Shown one piece after another: positions 7,202 through 16,293 of a DNA stretch of 64,000 nt. Numbering within the stretch: position 1 is the first letter of the stretch; each line of letters starts with the position of its first letter. The stretch is from Hellea sp. (lineage in GTDB: Bacteria; Pseudomonadota; Alphaproteobacteria; Caulobacterales; Maricaulaceae). The DNA is taken from the NCBI GenBank assembly GCA_020631215.1, contig JAHDHS010000010.1, positions 1 through 64,000 of the forward strand. Direction: 5' to 3'. Position numbers and translations under genes: made by a program. The notes under the pieces were generated by a model, which was not told where the DNA came from, did no database searches, and worked only from the letters and a program-made list of their open reading frames with translations.

Positions 7202-10090
7202 TTAGCGCTTTTTATAATTTACGTTTACGGGTGAAACGGCTTGTTCGTTTTGATCCAGTATACATTTACCGGAACGGTAATTGCCGACACTTCGAATGAC
7301 TTCGCCCGCCTCTGGCTCGACACGCACGCCTTTAACCAAGCTATTCAAGACCCGCGTGACCAGCCCGTCCAATCGCGTGACGATATAGCAATCCACCGTG
7401 GGTTCGGCATGCGGGTTTCCGATACCGCTGTCATCCGTCAAAAACAGATATCGCCCTCCAGTAATTTGCGCCATGGACCGCATCAGAAACTCGGCTGTTT
7501 TATCCACGCCGCTGGCCGCAACAGGCACAATATGAACACCTCTTGTCCGTGACAGCAAGCCGGCTTCCCAGGTGTCACTGATATAGCGGTTATGCGGCGG
7601 CGCATCAGCCACCAGCAAGTTCACCTTCAACGCATCATCACGCCACGCCATTTTCAAACCGGCATTCATGGCCTTATGCATGGCTTCAGGCATATCGCCG
7701 CCACCATGCGCGTTTTGCTTATCAAGCGATGATTTGAATGCATCAATATCGCCTGTGAAAGGTACTTCCCGCACGACATATGCATCACCCTCATCGCGAT
7801 AGACAATCAGCCCTGTTCGGATATCGATCCCCGGATTGGCATCCTCAACGCGCCTTAGAATGGCTTTCAGTTCTGATTGCAAATATCGCATCTCATCCGC
7901 CATTGAACCTGTCGCATCAATGGTCAGAAGAAGGTCCATTTTCTCGAAAGCCTGGCTATCCGTTTGAAGATTGACAACAAGATCCCCGCCATTGCTAATC
8001 TGCGACTGGGTCAGCGTTTTCGTCACCGAATTCGCTCCATCAACAGAGACTTTGACACTCACCCCTGCTTTTAAGCCATCAAAATAAGGATAAAGATAGG
8101 CCATGCCATCCGCGCCCGTCCGAAGCGGGAACATGCGTTTTCCACCTGGCGTTTCCAGGGTGATATCTGCCATCGGCACAGCTTTGCCAGCTCGGTCGAG
8201 AATACGAATATCGATACGCCGATCAGCATCCACATAAGGCAAACCTCTCTGACCAAGCGGGCCTTGCAGAACCTTATCTAAATAAACTTTATAGAGATCA
8301 GGATTAAGAACGTCATCATAATCACCCGCCGTAAGCTGACCAGCTTGCGGTTGAGGTTTGGGCTTGGGTTCGGGCGGCACTACAGGACTTTCAATGCGTT
8401 CAATGGAACCGTCTGGCATTACAATCACCATTTCCACGCTTTTCGGCTGAACGACAATCGTTTCCATGACGGTTTCATAGACAGGCGGCGGCGTAACAAT
8501 TTCAGTATAAGCTTCCTGAATAACGATCGTCTCGACCACATCTTCATACGTGCCGTCCGCTTTTTGAATTCGGAAAGTGACGTCTTTTGTAATGGCCGGG
8601 ATGACACGTTCCGTTGTACTGGCCGGGGTTTTGACAACGCGGCGGGGAACCTGTTTTGTTACGGCGGGCACTGCCCGTTCAACCAGCCGAGCGCCTTCGG
8701 GCAAGGTGAATGAACGCTTCCCATCAGATGTCACAGACGCATCGCGGCTGCGCTCAAAAGCCGGAGACGGAGGGGGCGGCGCGATTGGTGCAGAGGCAAT
8801 TTTTCTGGCAGAGCCTTTGCGTTTACTCGCGGTCACGACGATTTCGTCTGCCATCACAGGCGACGGCGCAATCACATCGCTATGACTAGCTATCTCTTCG
8901 GAAAAATATGCTGCGCCACTGTCGACCACACCAAGTTTATTTCTCAATTCACCGACTGAAGTAATCCCGCTCGATGCCCCCTCGCTTGGTTTGGGAGAGG
9001 CGACAATCTCTGACGCAATCACCTTGGTGGAACCGTCAGGCTGGAGTTCGATTGTCTCGCGCACCGTTTCAAAGACGGGCGGTACAGTCACCAATTCCGT
9101 GCTGGCTTCCTGAACAATCACGGTTTCCTGATAGGTTTCATATTCCGCCGGGGTGGTTACATATTCCACAGACTCAGGCTGAACAACCACAAGCTCAGAA
9201 ATGGTTTCAAACGTGCCATCCGCTTTCTCTACCCTGCGCGTTTCCGTTTTTGTAACCGGCGGAATTCGGCGCTCAACCGTTCTGGCTGGTGTTTTGATAC
9301 GGCGGCGTGTTTCAACTCTGGGTATTGCTGGAACAACTCTTTCCACTGTTTGGCCGGGCGTTTTTATGATCCGCCGTTCGATTGTCACCACATTGGAAGG
9401 AGTGGCAGTCTCTGGCGTCACTACTGCAATGTCTGCCGTGGGCGGCTCGGTGACGGAGGCATCGGTCTTACCCTCGCCATCTGCGGTCTTAACCGAAGGC
9501 GTTTCCAAAACAGGCGCAGATATCTCAGGATCGGAAATGACGGGCTCTTTTGGGGTTGCATCCACCTTTGGCACGACAATATCCGTTTTCGGCTCTGGCG
9601 TGATGACGGGTTCAATTGTCACTGGATCAGAAATCGCCGGATTAGAGATAACAGGCTCAGAAGTTTTCGGCTCGGTTATTGGCACGTTCACCGGGGCAAT
9701 GGGTTCAAGCGGATCGACACTGTAATCATGATTTGGCAGGATGATCACAGCCGCGATCAGGGCCGCCATACAGCTGCCGCCCATCATGGCGGCTCTTGGC
9801 GATAAGTTGAAAAAATTATTGAGTTTAGACATCATCAGGCTCCCAAAGGTCTGCACGCGGGCCGCGTGCGTGGTATGACCTGTAGGACGCGGCGCGCCCG
9901 CCAATCCTTGGGAGGTGTCTGATTTTTTTTGCGTGGCCGCCTGGGACGCGCTCTCTGATGAAGCCGCTGTCTCGGCGATAAATTCGCTGTCAAAGGCCGC
10001 CATCGCCGCCGCCATTCCGCGCGTGCGCGCGGCCTTGGAAGGTTTCAGGCCTTGCATCTCTGCGGCCAGCTTATCTGTGTCATCTGTCAT
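7202..10090 (-). CDS. single-pass membrane vWA-domain protein with duplicated periplasmic modules
   Basis: Cytosolic N-terminus, TM (AAMMGGSCMAALIAAVIIL), Pro-rich PVISDP repeats, two copies of a VERxxPAxxK.../VYETVxETIxxQ module, MIDAS-like LLLTIDATGSMADEM. Confidence 0.85.
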   Translation of the reverse strand: MTDDTDKLAAEMQGLKPSKAARTRGMAAAMAAFDSEFIAETAASSESASQAATQKKSDTSQGLAGAPRPTGHTTHAARVQTFGSLMMSKLNNFFNLSPRAAMMGGSCMAALIAAVIILPNHDYSVDPLEPIAPVNVPITEPKTSEPVISNPAISDPVTIEPVITPEPKTDIVVPKVDATPKEPVISDPEISAPVLETPSVKTADGEGKTDASVTEPPTADIAVVTPETATPSNVVTIERRIIKTPGQTVERVVPAIPRVETRRRIKTPARTVERRIPPVTKTETRRVEKADGTFETISELVVVQPESVEYVTTPAEYETYQETVIVQEASTELVTVPPVFETVRETIELQPDGSTKVIASEIVASPKPSEGASSGITSVGELRNKLGVVDSGAAYFSEEIASHSDVIAPSPVMADEIVVTASKRKGSARKIASAPIAPPPPSPAFERSRDASVTSDGKRSFTLPEGARLVERAVPAVTKQVPRRVVKTPASTTERVIPAITKDVTFRIQKADGTYEDVVETIVIQEAYTEIVTPPPVYETVMETIVVQPKSVEMVIVMPDGSIERIESPVVPPEPKPKPQPQAGQLTAGDYDDVLNPDLYKVYLDKVLQGPLGQRGLPYVDADRRIDIRILDRAGKAVPMADITLETPGGKRMFPLRTGADGMAYLYPYFDGLKAGVSVKVSVDGANSVTKTLTQSQISNGGDLVVNLQTDSQAFEKMDLLLTIDATGSMADEMRYLQSELKAILRRVEDANPGIDIRTGLIVYRDEGDAYVVREVPFTGDIDAFKSSLDKQNAHGGGDMPEAMHKAMNAGLKMAWRDDALKVNLLVADAPPHNRYISDTWEAGLLSRTRGVHIVPVAASGVDKTAEFLMRSMAQITGGRYLFLTDDSGIGNPHAEPTVDCYIVTRLDGLVTRVLNSLVKGVRVEPEAGEVIRSVGNYRSGKCILDQNEQAVSPVNVNYKKR

Positions 10091-10650
10091 GCCAGCGCCT
10101 CCTGTCCAAATCCGTTATCATTTGAGGCCAATGTCTTTAAAAGCCGCCTGATCTCGCTCATGCGCCAGGCCACTGTGCCTTCCGCCACGCCCAGAATTTC
10201 CGCAGCTTCGGCGAAGTTCAGTTGCTCGCCCAGCGTCAAAGCTGCCGTCGCACGTAAATCCTCCGATAAGGTATCCAGGGCGGCTTGCAGCCATGACAGC
10301 CGTTTGGCTGTGTCCAGACTGGCCTCACGCGATAAGGCCTCCACCTCGGCATAGCCGGACACCACGCGGGCTTGGGACGCCGACCGGCGCAATGAATCCT
10401 TGGCCGCGTTCAGGGCGATACGGTGCAGCCAGCTGGTGAACTTCGCGTCCCCGCGCCATGAGCGGAGCTTTTTCGGCATGGCCGCCCATATGTCCTGCGT
10501 GACATCTTCGGCTTCGCTTTGATCACGCAAGACGCTGTAGGTGACGCGAAACACCCGGTCATAATGCCGCCCAAGCAACAGCCGAAAGGCGTCCGCATCC
10601 CCCGATGCAGCCCGCGCGGCAAGCTCTTCATCCTGTTCGGTTTCAACCAT
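10087..10650 (-). CDS. RNA polymerase ECF-type sigma factor
   Basis: Sigma-2 (SEAEDVTQDIWAAMPKKLRSWRGDAKFTSWLHRIALNAAKDSLRR) and sigma-4 (NFAEAAEILGVAEGTVAWRMSEIRRLL); ATGA overlap with the vWA gene. Confidence 0.92.
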   Translation of the reverse strand: MVETEQDEELAARAASGDADAFRLLLGRHYDRVFRVTYSVLRDQSEAEDVTQDIWAAMPKKLRSWRGDAKFTSWLHRIALNAAKDSLRRSASQARVVSGYAEVEALSREASLDTAKRLSWLQAALDTLSEDLRATAALTLGEQLNFAEAAEILGVAEGTVAWRMSEIRRLLKTLASNDNGFGQEALA

Positions 10651-10755
10651 CTTACCCTGTAAGACGTATCTGAAACGGCAATCCTTGGAAATATTTTATA
10701 TTTTTTTTGAAAAAACTCAGTGCGCCGGTCTGTGAAAGGTGAAACCGCCGCAGGC

Positions 10756-12660
10756 CTACCTTGCTTTTAACGTGATGCTCTGTGTTTCGGACAGATCGGC
10801 CAGGTATATGTCGCGCCCGCTCTCGCCGCTGCGTTCTATGGGCAGAGAAGTCTCTGTGACCTGAAAGTCACCGTTTAGCTCTATCGTCAGGCCTTGAATG
10901 GGCTTCGGGGCCTCCAGCCGGATTTGATATTCCCCCCGGCCGAGCTTTATGAGATCGACCGAGACGTCATTGCGCGCGGCCCACCAATCCCCAAATTGCC
11001 GCATAGACCCCATCCAGGCATAGGGTTTGACTTCTTCGATGATGGCTTTTTGAAAATCCAGCCGACTATCCACTTCATCCGTATGGATCAGCACCACATA
11101 GACGCCGTTTATCTTGGCGATCTTGCGCGCCACATCAATCGCTTCATCCAGACGGTCTATCATAGGGCCGTCCAGTTCATCTTCGATCGTGATTGGAATT
11201 TCAAACACAGGCGTGAAGGCCTGAAACTCACGGTCATAGCTCAGTTGAAACGGGTAATGGGTCAAAGAGACATTCGCCGTTGAGGAAGAGCTGTATTTAT
11301 AGCCTGTGGCTGCCAAAACCTGCGGCAGCTGGCTCGGATTGCTTAAAAAGCCGGGCCGAAATGACTCCACCTTTTGCCCCGCAGAGAAGTGATCGAGCAG
11401 GAATTTTGATACGCGCAGCTCCCCCATCAAGCTTGCGCCGGTCGTGCGCGTGGCGGTCTCTACAAATGGCCGGTAATCGGGGTAGCTTTCTGTGCCGGTC
11501 CCAATTTCAAAATCCCACATATTATTCGAATGCGCGACGCTGTGGCTGGCGATTTCAGCGCCGTAATATTCGAGCGCCTTAATGATCTCTCCGGCCTGAT
11601 CATCCATAAAAATCTTATCATTAAAGTCCCGGATATATTTGGTTTGAATGAAATAAGTCCCGGAGATATTTTCCTCATTCAGATGTTTTGCATAAGGGAT
11701 GGTATTTCTCAGGCTTTCGGAAAAATCTATGTCATAGCTTAAGATAAAGCTCAGGGATTTTCCGTCAGGCACAGTTCCCAAAGTCGCAATCGGTTTTGAT
11801 TGGGATTGATAGATTTGCTTTAAGAAAATCAGACCTGCATCTAGAACTGGGTGATAATGATTGGCATAATGTTCCGCGATATCAACTTGCCGCCGATTAT
11901 ATCCCTTGGACAAAAGCTGCCCTAAATCGACGCCCAAGGCATAGGCCCGCCCGTCGCCATAATCATTGCGCACGATCGCCGCTTCGCCGTTTTCATAAAG
12001 TGCTAAGGGCGGATTCACAGGATCATTATAACTATTCGTGCCAGGATTAGCGGCTGTATCCGTGGCGCTGCCGATTTTGATACTAGACAGGCCTTTTTCA
12101 CGAAACCCGGCCGTTTCAGAAAAGCCGGGCTGGAAGCTTAAGCCATGTCGGGATTTGCTCTCTGATATCGCCTCAAACCCAAAGACGTCAAACATGCCGC
12201 CGCCCAGAATATTGGTGCCGATGAGCGTACCGCCCTTTTGCGTGAAGGCCCGCAGCGCGCCCAGTTCCTTGACCGTTAAATTGCGTCCGGTCAGCTTCGG
12301 ATAGATCATAACCATTTCATGTGACACCGCCTCATCCACATCCCGGGTCATACGAAAGGGAATACCGATGGTTTTAAGCCCCGTCGCCAAAGCCAGCCAG
12401 TGCGAGTCATCTTCTGTGATCAGGACCGCCAGACGACTTGGCTCGCCCCTATCAAACTGTTCCGTTCCGCCATAGACCGGGTCTTGCAGCGGGGTGGCTG
12501 CGGAAGGTCCTTCAAGCCCTTCATAGATATGTATGCGCTCGGCACATCCCGACAACATGAAGGTGATGATCACAAAAGGCGTAATCAATATATGACGTAG
12601 GTATAAGCCCATGATTGTGAAACGCCCCCTCCAGGCAGTTTGGATCAACCTAAGAGTCAA
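10756..12660 (-). CDS. polysaccharide deacetylase-like (NodB-fold) lipoprotein
   Basis: Lipobox LSGC; NodB-like motifs LSYDIDFS and EIASHSVAHS; C-terminal beta-rich region. Confidence 0.75.
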   Translation of the reverse strand: MTLRLIQTAWRGRFTIMGLYLRHILITPFVIITFMLSGCAERIHIYEGLEGPSAATPLQDPVYGGTEQFDRGEPSRLAVLITEDDSHWLALATGLKTIGIPFRMTRDVDEAVSHEMVMIYPKLTGRNLTVKELGALRAFTQKGGTLIGTNILGGGMFDVFGFEAISESKSRHGLSFQPGFSETAGFREKGLSSIKIGSATDTAANPGTNSYNDPVNPPLALYENGEAAIVRNDYGDGRAYALGVDLGQLLSKGYNRRQVDIAEHYANHYHPVLDAGLIFLKQIYQSQSKPIATLGTVPDGKSLSFILSYDIDFSESLRNTIPYAKHLNEENISGTYFIQTKYIRDFNDKIFMDDQAGEIIKALEYYGAEIASHSVAHSNNMWDFEIGTGTESYPDYRPFVETATRTTGASLMGELRVSKFLLDHFSAGQKVESFRPGFLSNPSQLPQVLAATGYKYSSSSTANVSLTHYPFQLSYDREFQAFTPVFEIPITIEDELDGPMIDRLDEAIDVARKIAKINGVYVVLIHTDEVDSRLDFQKAIIEEVKPYAWMGSMRQFGDWWAARNDVSVDLIKLGRGEYQIRLEAPKPIQGLTIELNGDFQVTETSLPIERSGESGRDIYLADLSETQSITLKAR

Positions 12661-14104
12661 CCGAAACCGTAAAGCCCCGGCGGTCCATATTGCCCCATGT
12701 CGGTTTCATGCCACGGAAATGTTGAATAAGACCCCTGATCCGCCAAATCGAACAGAGTTGACGGAAGCCAAAATTTTCTATGATTGCCGTCAAAAGCACT
12801 GACAAAATATCCTGCGGTCGTGAAAACCTTTCAATTTCATCCTGCTCTAAGACCAGCGCCAACACGGATATCAAAACGCCATAGGAAAAAATCAGCATCG
12901 TAATCGCAATAAAGAACCTGACATCCATCCAGCCCAGCAAAACAAAGATGATCATGAGGACATAACCCAGAATTTCGGCAATCGGACTGATCAAATCCGT
13001 CAAAACAAAGGTCGGTAAGGTCACCATGCCTAATCGCCCGTAGCGCGGATTAAAGATCATCTTCTTGTGGCGGCTAAGACATTCCAGCGCGCCCCTCTGC
13101 CAGCGCGTGCGTTGATTAGACAGGAACTTCAGCCCTTCCGGCGCTTCGGTCCAGCAGACCGGCTCGGGCACATATCTGATGGCATAATCTGTATCTGTTT
13201 CCAGCATATGCCGGTGCATTTTTAAAACGAGCTCCATATCCTCGCCGACAGTCGTTGTGTCATAACCCCCGACCTTCACAGCGATATCGCGCCGGAAGAC
13301 TCCAAAGGCTCCGGAAATAATCGCCAGGCTGCCCTTGCGGCTGGCGGCCAGCCGCGCCATCAGAAACGCGCGGATATATTCAACCACTTGCAGCCGCGCC
13401 AGAAATGACTTTGGCAGCTTATATTCAACCACTTGGCCGTTTTTAATCTTGCACCCATTGACAATCCCGACCGTACCGCCGACGGCGATGACATTGTCGG
13501 ATGTCTCCATAAAGGGGCGCACGACTTTTAACAAAGCCGTCGGCTCCAAAAGTGAATCCGCGTCAATCACACAGAACAAAGGCGTTCTAACACAGGTCAA
13601 ACCCGTATTGATGGCATCCGCTTTTTTCCCGTTTTCTTTATCGATGAATAAAAGCGAGGGGTAGATTTCGGATCGGTAAATCTGACGGATTGGTTTATGT
13701 GTGATCGTCGCCGTGTCTCTGACCAAATATGTTTCAACCATGTTAAATTCTTCAACCATGGTCTCGGCTGTGGCGTCGGAAGACCCATCATTGACGACGA
13801 TAATCCGCAGGTCAGGATATTGCAGCGCCATAAGGGCCATGACATTTTCACGAATAGTATTGGCCTCATTATAGGCCGGAACGATGATGGTTATGGGCAA
13901 GACAGAGCGGGACCGCAGAATTTCCCATCCGGCGTGATCATCATCCCGCTGGCTTCGAGCGTTTAGCTCAAGCCACGCATTGGGAAGACACCATGCATAA
14001 ACGACATTTTGAATAAACCCGACAGCCACCACAAAAAGACTGATCCAAAAGACCGCCATGGATAAATTTGGATTGGTCGGAAGATCTGTTAGCCACTCAA
14101 ACAT
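12650..14104 (-). CDS. glycosyltransferase family 2, PgaC/BcsA-like membrane synthase
   Basis: ITIIVPAYNEANTI, VVNDGSSDAT, DADSLLEP, GEDMELVLKMHR, QRTRWQRG (QxxRW), several TM helices. Confidence 0.93.
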   Translation of the reverse strand: MFEWLTDLPTNPNLSMAVFWISLFVVAVGFIQNVVYAWCLPNAWLELNARSQRDDDHAGWEILRSRSVLPITIIVPAYNEANTIRENVMALMALQYPDLRIIVVNDGSSDATAETMVEEFNMVETYLVRDTATITHKPIRQIYRSEIYPSLLFIDKENGKKADAINTGLTCVRTPLFCVIDADSLLEPTALLKVVRPFMETSDNVIAVGGTVGIVNGCKIKNGQVVEYKLPKSFLARLQVVEYIRAFLMARLAASRKGSLAIISGAFGVFRRDIAVKVGGYDTTTVGEDMELVLKMHRHMLETDTDYAIRYVPEPVCWTEAPEGLKFLSNQRTRWQRGALECLSRHKKMIFNPRYGRLGMVTLPTFVLTDLISPIAEILGYVLMIIFVLLGWMDVRFFIAITMLIFSYGVLISVLALVLEQDEIERFSRPQDILSVLLTAIIENFGFRQLCSIWRIRGLIQHFRGMKPTWGNMDRRGFTVSVDS

Positions 14105-15188
14105 AGCCTGACCTCATCTCCAAGGCGACATCAGCGGCGGTCGCGTTTGATTGTCTTAATGTATCGACAAATTGGCGGCCAGACTTACCAGTCATCCAGA
14201 TGGCCCTGAGGGCCCAATACCGCACCCATAATTCGGGGTCCGATGAAAGCTTATAAAGCTCTGACGTTAAATCAGCCCGTCTGTGAGTACAGGCCAGCTT
14301 GGCGGCTTTGATTTTGACGGACATGGCGTCATCTTTCAGCCCCATTCGCAAGGGATCTGCTCCTCCCTGATGGCTGGTCACCTCGGACAAGGATAGCGCC
14401 GCGGCCCTGACCAAATCAGACGGATGATCCATCAAGCCGATTAAATCCAAAGAGGTCTCATGTGGCATAATCTGGATTAAAGCTTCGAGGCAGCCCGCTA
14501 TCACGACATCATTGTTTGACTCTTGAATATGACTCTCCAAAGCGGGCGTGATCCCTGTCCCAAAGCCGGCCAAAATGCCGCCCAGTATTTGAGGGCGATT
14601 GGGGAATGCGTCTGAAAGTGACTCGATGATTTGATTTAAGAAAAAATCTGCTTTGCGCCTGACTAGGCACCTCGCCGCCGTCAAACGTATATATTTATCT
14701 CTGGATTCCAGCTGGGAAAATATGACCTCTAACGAGTCTTGGGTATTTAAATATGATAATGTCTGCACCGCCCGCATACGTACGCCTCTTGTGCCCTCGC
14801 GGCAGCTTTTGATGATATGTGCTTCCAGTTCAGAATTAGAAACCAGCTTTTGCAGGCGTTCATATTTTTTCCCGCGTAGAGTTCGGAAGTAATGCAAGAG
14901 CACCTCTGTGGCCTGTTCGATATGTGATGGAAATTCATCGATGATTTCCGGATCATCCATCAGGGGGTCGTCTTCCCCTGGATCATCAATTGTTTTTGCT
15001 AAGCGTTCAGAGAGGTGAGCCCGAAATTTTTCCGCCTGCACCATGCTTTTGACTTGATATTTGTTACGAAGAACGCGCCGTAAGATAATGAAAAGACAGA
15101 ACAAACATGCCAATATCAAAAAGGTAACAGAGACCGCCCAGAAAAATCCGAGCAGGCTGATTTTAGCGTTTATAAGTAAAACCGACAT
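14097..15188 (-). CDS. HEAT-repeat protein with N-terminal TM anchor
   Basis: Repeated helical pattern (GVRMRAVQTLSYLNTQDSLEVIFSQLESRDKYIRLTAARCLV...; VRYWALRAIWM) after a TM helix. Confidence 0.8.
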   Translation of the reverse strand: MSVLLINAKISLLGFFWAVSVTFLILACLFCLFIILRRVLRNKYQVKSMVQAEKFRAHLSERLAKTIDDPGEDDPLMDDPEIIDEFPSHIEQATEVLLHYFRTLRGKKYERLQKLVSNSELEAHIIKSCREGTRGVRMRAVQTLSYLNTQDSLEVIFSQLESRDKYIRLTAARCLVRRKADFFLNQIIESLSDAFPNRPQILGGILAGFGTGITPALESHIQESNNDVVIAGCLEALIQIMPHETSLDLIGLMDHPSDLVRAAALSLSEVTSHQGGADPLRMGLKDDAMSVKIKAAKLACTHRRADLTSELYKLSSDPELWVRYWALRAIWMTGKSGRQFVDTLRQSNATAADVALEMRSGYV

Positions 15189-16293
15189 TGACGCTGTTTC
15201 GAATATAACTGTTTTCGCGATCGTCTCTGGCCAGATTTACATGCAAATCCAAATTATCACGCACGGCATAAGACACGCCGCCAAATAGGCTTTCTGTCGT
15301 CACGGCGACCCCGTTAATAGCTTCCGGGGCTTTGGCATAGCCAAGATTTACCGATAGCTTGTCTGACGCGGGCACCCGCCCCTGAACCAGCCAGCCAAGC
15401 TGATCTTTTTCATTCCTGGAAACCGTCCCGATTAAACGCCCGGTCAGCACAACGCCATTATCCAAATAGGCCATCACGCCCGGCTGAATATTATGAATAT
15501 CCCCGGAGGCGTAGTCATCATAGCGGTAGGTCACATTCGGATAGAGAACGGTTCCGTTATCCGTCTCGATGGCTCGGCCGACCCGTCCGCCTGCACTGAA
15601 ATCCGGTCTGAATGTGGCATTGGGCGTAGCGCCGACTTCGACGCCCCAATCCCAGCCGCCGCGAACCGCGTCTGAAATACCGCCTTTAATCTCAAGGTCA
15701 GTTTTACCAAACCGCTTATAGCGCTGTACCGAGCCATGATAAGCAAGGTTTTCGGGCGCATATTCAGCGCGTAAAAACTGCTCGTCCCAATCACTTTGCT
15801 TCACCCGTGAGAAATCAGAAAAGCCGACACTGCCATCCAGCCGCCATGTGCGGCGACCATTTGACCGCTTTGCCGCTTTGGCTTTGCGAACATTTTCAAG
15901 GCCGGTTCTGGCGTCCTGATATTGCGGGTAGCGTTTCAGAACCTCCGTATAATGCATTTCGGCTTCCGGCAATTTCCCTTGATAATAGGCCAAATTGCCT
16001 CTTGCGACCTGAATATCCGCATTATTTGGGTAATCTCTGGACAGAGCCATCAACTCAGCATTGGCTTCGTTATACTGACCGCTCCAGGATAAAATACGCG
16101 CTTTTAGAAAACGGTGATCATAACCGGCTTTGGTTTGGGCATCTTCATTGGCTAACAGCGTGAGTGCCTGACTAAAGTTTTTTTGCCCCGCCAATTCCAG
16201 AGCACGCGCATTCGTCTCACTCGCCCAAGATGACGCGCTAAGCGCTACAAGCACCACAAGAGCAAGTATCACCTGCTTGAATGCTGTTATCAT
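15163..16293 (-). CDS. YaiO-family outer-membrane protein (TPR + beta-barrel)
   Basis: Signal peptide, TPR-like region (ANAELMALSRDYPNNADIQVARGNLAYYQGKLPEAEMHYTEVLKRYPQYQDARTGL) followed by C-terminal barrel. Confidence 0.78.
   Translation of the reverse strand: MITAFKQVILALVVLVALSASSWASETNARALELAGQKNFSQALTLLANEDAQTKAGYDHRFLKARILSWSGQYNEANAELMALSRDYPNNADIQVARGNLAYYQGKLPEAEMHYTEVLKRYPQYQDARTGLENVRKAKAAKRSNGRRTWRLDGSVGFSDFSRVKQSDWDEQFLRAEYAPENLAYHGSVQRYKRFGKTDLEIKGGISDAVRGGWDWGVEVGATPNATFRPDFSAGGRVGRAIETDNGTVLYPNVTYRYDDYASGDIHNIQPGVMAYLDNGVVLTGRLIGTVSRNEKDQLGWLVQGRVPASDKLSVNLGYAKAPEAINGVAVTTESLFGGVSYAVRDNLDLHVNLARDDRENSYIRNSVNVGFTYKR

Follow-up and report, generated by a model that had tools for sequence, protein, structure and literature searches.

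The sigma factor gene and the von Willebrand A (vWA) membrane protein gene analyzed here probably constitute an autoregulated operon of an ECF sigma factor and a membrane anti-sigma factor, in which the anti-sigma gene gives two products. We consider it likely that the sigma factor drives a truncated, head-free form of its putative anti-sigma factor from a promoter inside that gene's own coding sequence; the free periplasmic vWA part would then be an output of the circuit, possibly with a role in feedback, and the coding sequence would have been shaped by the promoter across Pseudomonadota. Both genes are on the minus strand of the window (the whole 64,000-nucleotide stretch of DNA that was analyzed), where the stop codon of the sigma factor gene and the start codon of the vWA gene overlap in the sequence ATGA, as an earlier note on this DNA had described. 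Their features are collected in Table 1. A short overlap of the two genes is kept in nearly all relatives whose linked loci were compared, and for that reason the arrangement is more than chance. The same-strand genes upstream of the pair (10756-16293) look like an exopolysaccharide cluster: a polysaccharide-deacetylase-like protein comes first (the only one checked against Pfam), and the rest, by inspection, are a glycosyltransferase, a HEAT-repeat-like protein and a TPR/beta-barrel-like protein.

Table 1. Positions of the genes, sites and protein regions discussed in the text, in window coordinates
Feature	Position	Strand	Remarks
P1, ECF-type promoter-like site before the sigma factor gene, CCAAGGATT...TACGTCTTA	10660..10688	-	Conserved in the family and in most linked loci
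ECF sigma factor gene	10087..10650	-	187 aa; ORF call, profile matches, 60-77% identical orthologues
vWA membrane protein gene, long form, putative anti-sigma factor	7202..10090	-	962 aa; ORF call, domain match
Cytosolic head, residues 1-60	9911..10090	-	Two-helix core (about residues 5-40) widely conserved
P2, promoter-like site in the vWA gene, CCAAGGATTGGCGGGCGCGCCGCGTCCTA	9883..9911	-	Encodes QGLAGAPRPT; DNA-level conservation
Shine-Dalgarno-like GGGAG	9840..9844	-	7 nt before the Met87 codon; conserved in relatives
Proposed short form from Met87, head-free	7202..9832	-	876 aa; predicted from sequence
TM helix	9737..9793	-	About residues 100-118; hydropathy peak starting at residue 100
Repeat module 1	8981..9379	-	About residues 238-370
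Repeat module 2	8336..8698	-	About residues 465-585
VWA_4-type vWA domain	7406..7945	-	About residues 716-895; D725-A-T-G-S at the MIDAS position

The assignment of the upstream gene to the ECF sigma factors was based on a Pfam match to Sigma70_r2 (5e-16), a match to region 4 (3e-5) that fell just short of Pfam's cut-off, and a score of 77 bits against TIGR02937, for which the cut-off is 43. Consistent with this assignment, the protein has regions 2 and 4 only in about 190 residues, and a conserved fixed-spacer motif, CCAAGG-N16-CGTC, with a predicted promoter role is found at its own operon and at several other genes. The window's family includes 15 further genomes in which an orthologue is located directly upstream of a head-bearing partner. 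The ECF group to which it belongs may already carry a published number.

The downstream protein consists, in order, of a head of about 100 residues, a TM helix, a Pro-rich linker containing a PVISNP/PVISDP stretch, two repeat modules that share the motif KTPA.TxERxIPAxTK...ETVxE, an Ig-like region assigned by inspection, and a vWA domain matched by the Pfam VWA_4 profile over residues 720-855 (9e-10). Sequence, hydropathy and profile match thus agree with the earlier note on the single TM helix, the Pro-rich repeats, the two modules and the vWA domain. When the metal site is compared with a DxSxS-type MIDAS plus Thr/Asp, the protein has DATGS at 725, ADAPPH at 828, and GGGDM where relatives show GGGDT. 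No match was obtained in a PDB search with the vWA half, and AlphaFold2 models built from the single sequence for residues 560-962 (mean pLDDT 40) and residues 1-125 (mean pLDDT 53) were of low confidence and too poor for a fold search. The repeat module (window 8336-9379) recurs in relatives, where secreted ORFs of about 2800-3050 aa contain dozens of copies and their C-terminal region looks like a peptidoglycan-binding domain (loci with such repeat-module ORFs are L059, L131, L005 and L035:3-1163), and the end of such a protein is present at a contig edge in the window's own genome (C16).

The search for related pairs began with the window's family (137 genomes) and went on to the class and the phylum, many of the genomes being incomplete. 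The analysis covered 56 sigma-linked vWA loci in Pseudomonadota, related to one another so that counts over them are not independent, in which the gene directly downstream of the sigma factor gene encodes a vWA protein that has a short cytosolic head and a single TM helix. Lack of conservation in related genomes, one of the results that the earlier note had named as refuting its reading, was looked for and not observed, and the presence of the pair in 56 genomes also supports the co-expression that it had proposed. Beyond the window's family the loci occur in several other alphaproteobacterial families, some of which look like rhizobia and Rhodobacteraceae, and three (L243, L245 and L246) are outside Alphaproteobacteria. 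Most of the sigma factor partners end in a module of the YfbK family (PF12450/PF12034 plus vWA), and in these sigma-linked YfbK genes the head is cytosolic and the TM helix internal; about 38 YfbK genes that have no sigma factor upstream, in contrast, lack the head and mostly begin with a signal peptide or lipobox, their products being exported proteins or lipoproteins.

In the window and in five other genomes (G014, G016, G017, G048 and G050) a VWA_4 module is present instead of the YfbK module. PF12034 (YfbK_C) was found neither in the window protein nor elsewhere in its genome. Compared with stand-alone exported proteins of G052 and G056, the VWA_4 module shows 66-69% identity over about 360-390 residues, and G052 holds both a sigma factor with a YfbK partner and a separate VWA_4 protein. 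Loci L048:10121-11686 and L049:4741-6081 encode exported VWA_4 proteins that stand alone and are homologous to the window protein's C-terminal part. The simplest reading of these comparisons is that the lineage of the window swapped the YfbK-type part for a VWA_4 part behind a constant unit of sigma factor plus head, with the stand-alone VWA_4 proteins as the likely donor. YfbK as the usual partner, this apparent swap, and the second promoter copy with its internal start, described below, all go beyond the earlier note.

Alignment of the DNA upstream of the sigma factor gene across the family revealed one conserved block only, TTTCCAAGGATT...GATACGTCTTAC. This site, P1, is conserved in most sigma-linked loci of Pseudomonadota, and among the 56 it was not recognized in L243 and L246; in the window its CGTC ends 12 nt ahead of the sigma factor ATG. 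The -10 of P1 is close to the gene in most loci (window 10648-10688 and relatives): only about 5-12 nt separate its end from the sigma factor start codon, and because of this proximity the sigma factor mRNA may be nearly leaderless. When genomes were scanned with the P1 motif, a second site, P2, came up inside the vWA gene, having CCAAGG-N16-CGTC in common with P1. The two are the only matches in the window (0 expected) and the only two in the whole of its own assembly. As a control for spacing, a pattern with a 17-nt spacer was used, and none of its 8 matches was at a sigma factor locus. Some extra matches to the motif, L134, L144 and L207 among them, fall within unrelated ORFs and seem to be due to chance.

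P2 was identified in 55 of the 56 linked genes, 3 of them with a weaker flank or one changed base. In the one gene left, L224, both P1 and P2 read CAAAGG-N16-CGTC, from which it follows that its two sites changed together. Synonymous resampling with each gene's own codon usage gave an expectation of 1.14 genes with P2, compared to the 55 seen. Within the site, which coincides with the codons for residues 60-70 of the head (QG.....RPTG) and shows constrained codon choice, the Gln codon is always CAA and the Arg codon always CGT, and CAAGG is preceded by a C in 55/55 genes even though the codon to which this base belongs encodes 11 different residues. The genes with P2 represent about 15 families, but since they are related no formal probability is attached to this conservation. 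As judged from these sequences, it is the DNA of P2 that is being conserved, and conservation of the protein alone would leave the site in about one gene. The motif was not found at the corresponding place in the sigma-free YfbK regions.

An in-frame ATG follows P2 in 54 of the 55 genes (all except L234), just ahead of the TM helix and 28-95 nt past the CGTC, the distance being mostly 35, 47, 50 or 53 nt; in the window it is the codon of Met87, a residue invariant in the family. A Shine-Dalgarno sequence precedes this ATG in 51/55 genes, against 9.8 expected, and was weaker in three family members; at other internal ATGs of the same genes it was present at 6%. Most likely, then, P2 would yield a short vWA protein that is free of the head but retains its membrane anchor along with the entire periplasmic portion.

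The portion missing from such a protein is the one that would contact the sigma factor. The earlier note had suggested that a cytosolic segment of about 100 residues could act as an anti-sigma tether. The length of the segment was borne out, but the core common to 34 lineages, L..L....P.PD..AR..A...AM.xF, with two predicted helices, has only about 40 residues, so any tether would be shorter than had been thought; the idea itself is favored by the occurrence of the pair in 56 genomes and of the head in vWA genes with the sigma factor but not in those without it. The ZAS motif Hx3Cx2C, which the note had likewise failed to see, is absent from the head because no Cys precedes the TM helix (the first, residue 107, is within it). 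A known anti-sigma family was considered for the head and rejected, since Pfam, NCBIfam and the PDB returned no family or structure match. As expected for a membrane anti-sigma factor, the gene is linked to a sigma factor gene (56 loci) and encodes an N-terminal part that is cytosolic and, next to it, a single TM helix. The head is present in the sigma-linked vWA genes, and because the approximately 38 sigma-free YfbK genes do not have it, a role as an anti-sigma-like part, predicted to bind the sigma factor, is supported.

The motif also occurs outside the operon. It is upstream of a DUF4349 lipoprotein gene in four genomes (L172, L168, L199 and L148) and upstream of a gene for a stand-alone NQR2/RnfD-like membrane protein in five (L158, L152, L166, L145 and L156). 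In relatives it is close before genes, and it appears to behave as a promoter of the sigma factor. The DUF4349 homologue of the window's own genome (L256) has no such site, and therefore membership of this gene in the regulon is not general, and the circuit in that genome may act mainly on itself. A study of Mesorhizobium huakuii bacteroids lists yfbK and a sigma factor gene with an adjacent number at ratios of 13.9 and 15.6 (PMC3973600); that the two change together counts in favor of the model.

In the mechanism that we propose, the head of the long form would hold the sigma factor at the membrane until some periplasmic event releases it. The freed sigma factor would transcribe from P1, renewing itself and the long form together, and from P2, giving the short form with its anchor and whole periplasmic part. 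We speculate that the short form is the output, an exported vWA envelope effector similar to the YfbK lipoproteins that have no sigma factor, and that, by competing against the long form for the signal, it could also reset the switch. The layout is that of two fused genes with the promoter, leader and ribosome site of the second inside, which suggests that long ago an anti-sigma gene was fused to a vWA gene with a promoter of its own, and that the promoter and ribosome site of the vWA gene were kept.

The same layout could be read as evidence that P2 is a functionless relic of that fusion, but a relic would have decayed, and about 15 families still carry an intact site, also at loci outside Alphaproteobacteria, which makes this extremely improbable. 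A different view of P2 is that its likeness to a promoter is a by-product of the head protein motif QG-x5-R, nearly constant among the linked proteins, and that the gene has one product only. We regard this as quite improbable given the fixation of codons far beyond usage and the C that always stands before CAA at a position where the residue varies; further, Gln has become Lys in L224 and yet the site is still equal to that gene's own P1, Gly is replaced by Ala in L047 and by Glu in L242, and both a Shine-Dalgarno sequence and an ATG come after P2.

Another explanation accepts the sites and questions the roles of the proteins. P2 may be active and the short form made while the head activates or recruits the sigma factor, or while the vWA gene is a mere target and the anti-sigma factor is encoded elsewhere. 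In favor of this is that the head is unlike any known anti-sigma domain and that its binding to the sigma factor is a prediction; however, head and sigma factor occur strictly together across families, their genes overlap, and a cytosolic head, a TM helix and a periplasmic part are the usual layout of an anti-sigma factor, so that we consider it unlikely. It is very improbable that P1 and P2 are sites of another regulator and not promoters of this sigma factor, given that a CGTC -10 at fixed spacing and orientation is ECF-like, that the motif sits close before genes, and that sigma-free YfbK regions do not have it at the corresponding place.

The favored reading, an operon whose anti-sigma gene would give two products, resembles the single-TM anti-sigma factors of the RseA, RskA and EcfR type in its adjacent or overlapping genes, cytosolic N-terminus, single TM helix, periplasmic C-terminus and autoregulation from an ECF promoter (general knowledge and PMC6180224). 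It differs from them in a head of no known family, a vWA periplasmic part, and the inner promoter copy and start. The S. meliloti ECF26 sigma factors RpoE1/3/4/6 with EcfR are likewise alphaproteobacterial ECF factors with a downstream membrane anti-sigma factor; their mapped promoters have a CGTC-like -10 and a GGAATA-like -35, whereas the -35 of the window motif is CCAAGG, and the account of 11 S. meliloti ECFs mentions no von Willebrand partner (PMC6180224). On the YfbK/ECF pair, in a literature comparison that lay outside the 2021 ECF re-classification, so that a published ECF group with a vWA anti-sigma factor may exist, nothing was found beyond the Mesorhizobium table (PMC3973600), and the literature searched contained no paper on a promoter located inside the coding sequence of an anti-sigma factor.

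If our reading is true, one gene encodes the inhibitor of a switch and, under the control of that same switch, the sensor or effector part free of the inhibitor, a design for which we found no description in the searched literature and whose layout is deeply conserved. It would tie uncharacterized YfbK/vWA proteins to a sigma factor circuit, and the promoter motif could be used to find the regulon (DUF4349 lipoproteins, NQR2/RnfD-like proteins). It would also mean that a promoter embedded in a gene can be the reason why part of the encoded protein is conserved.
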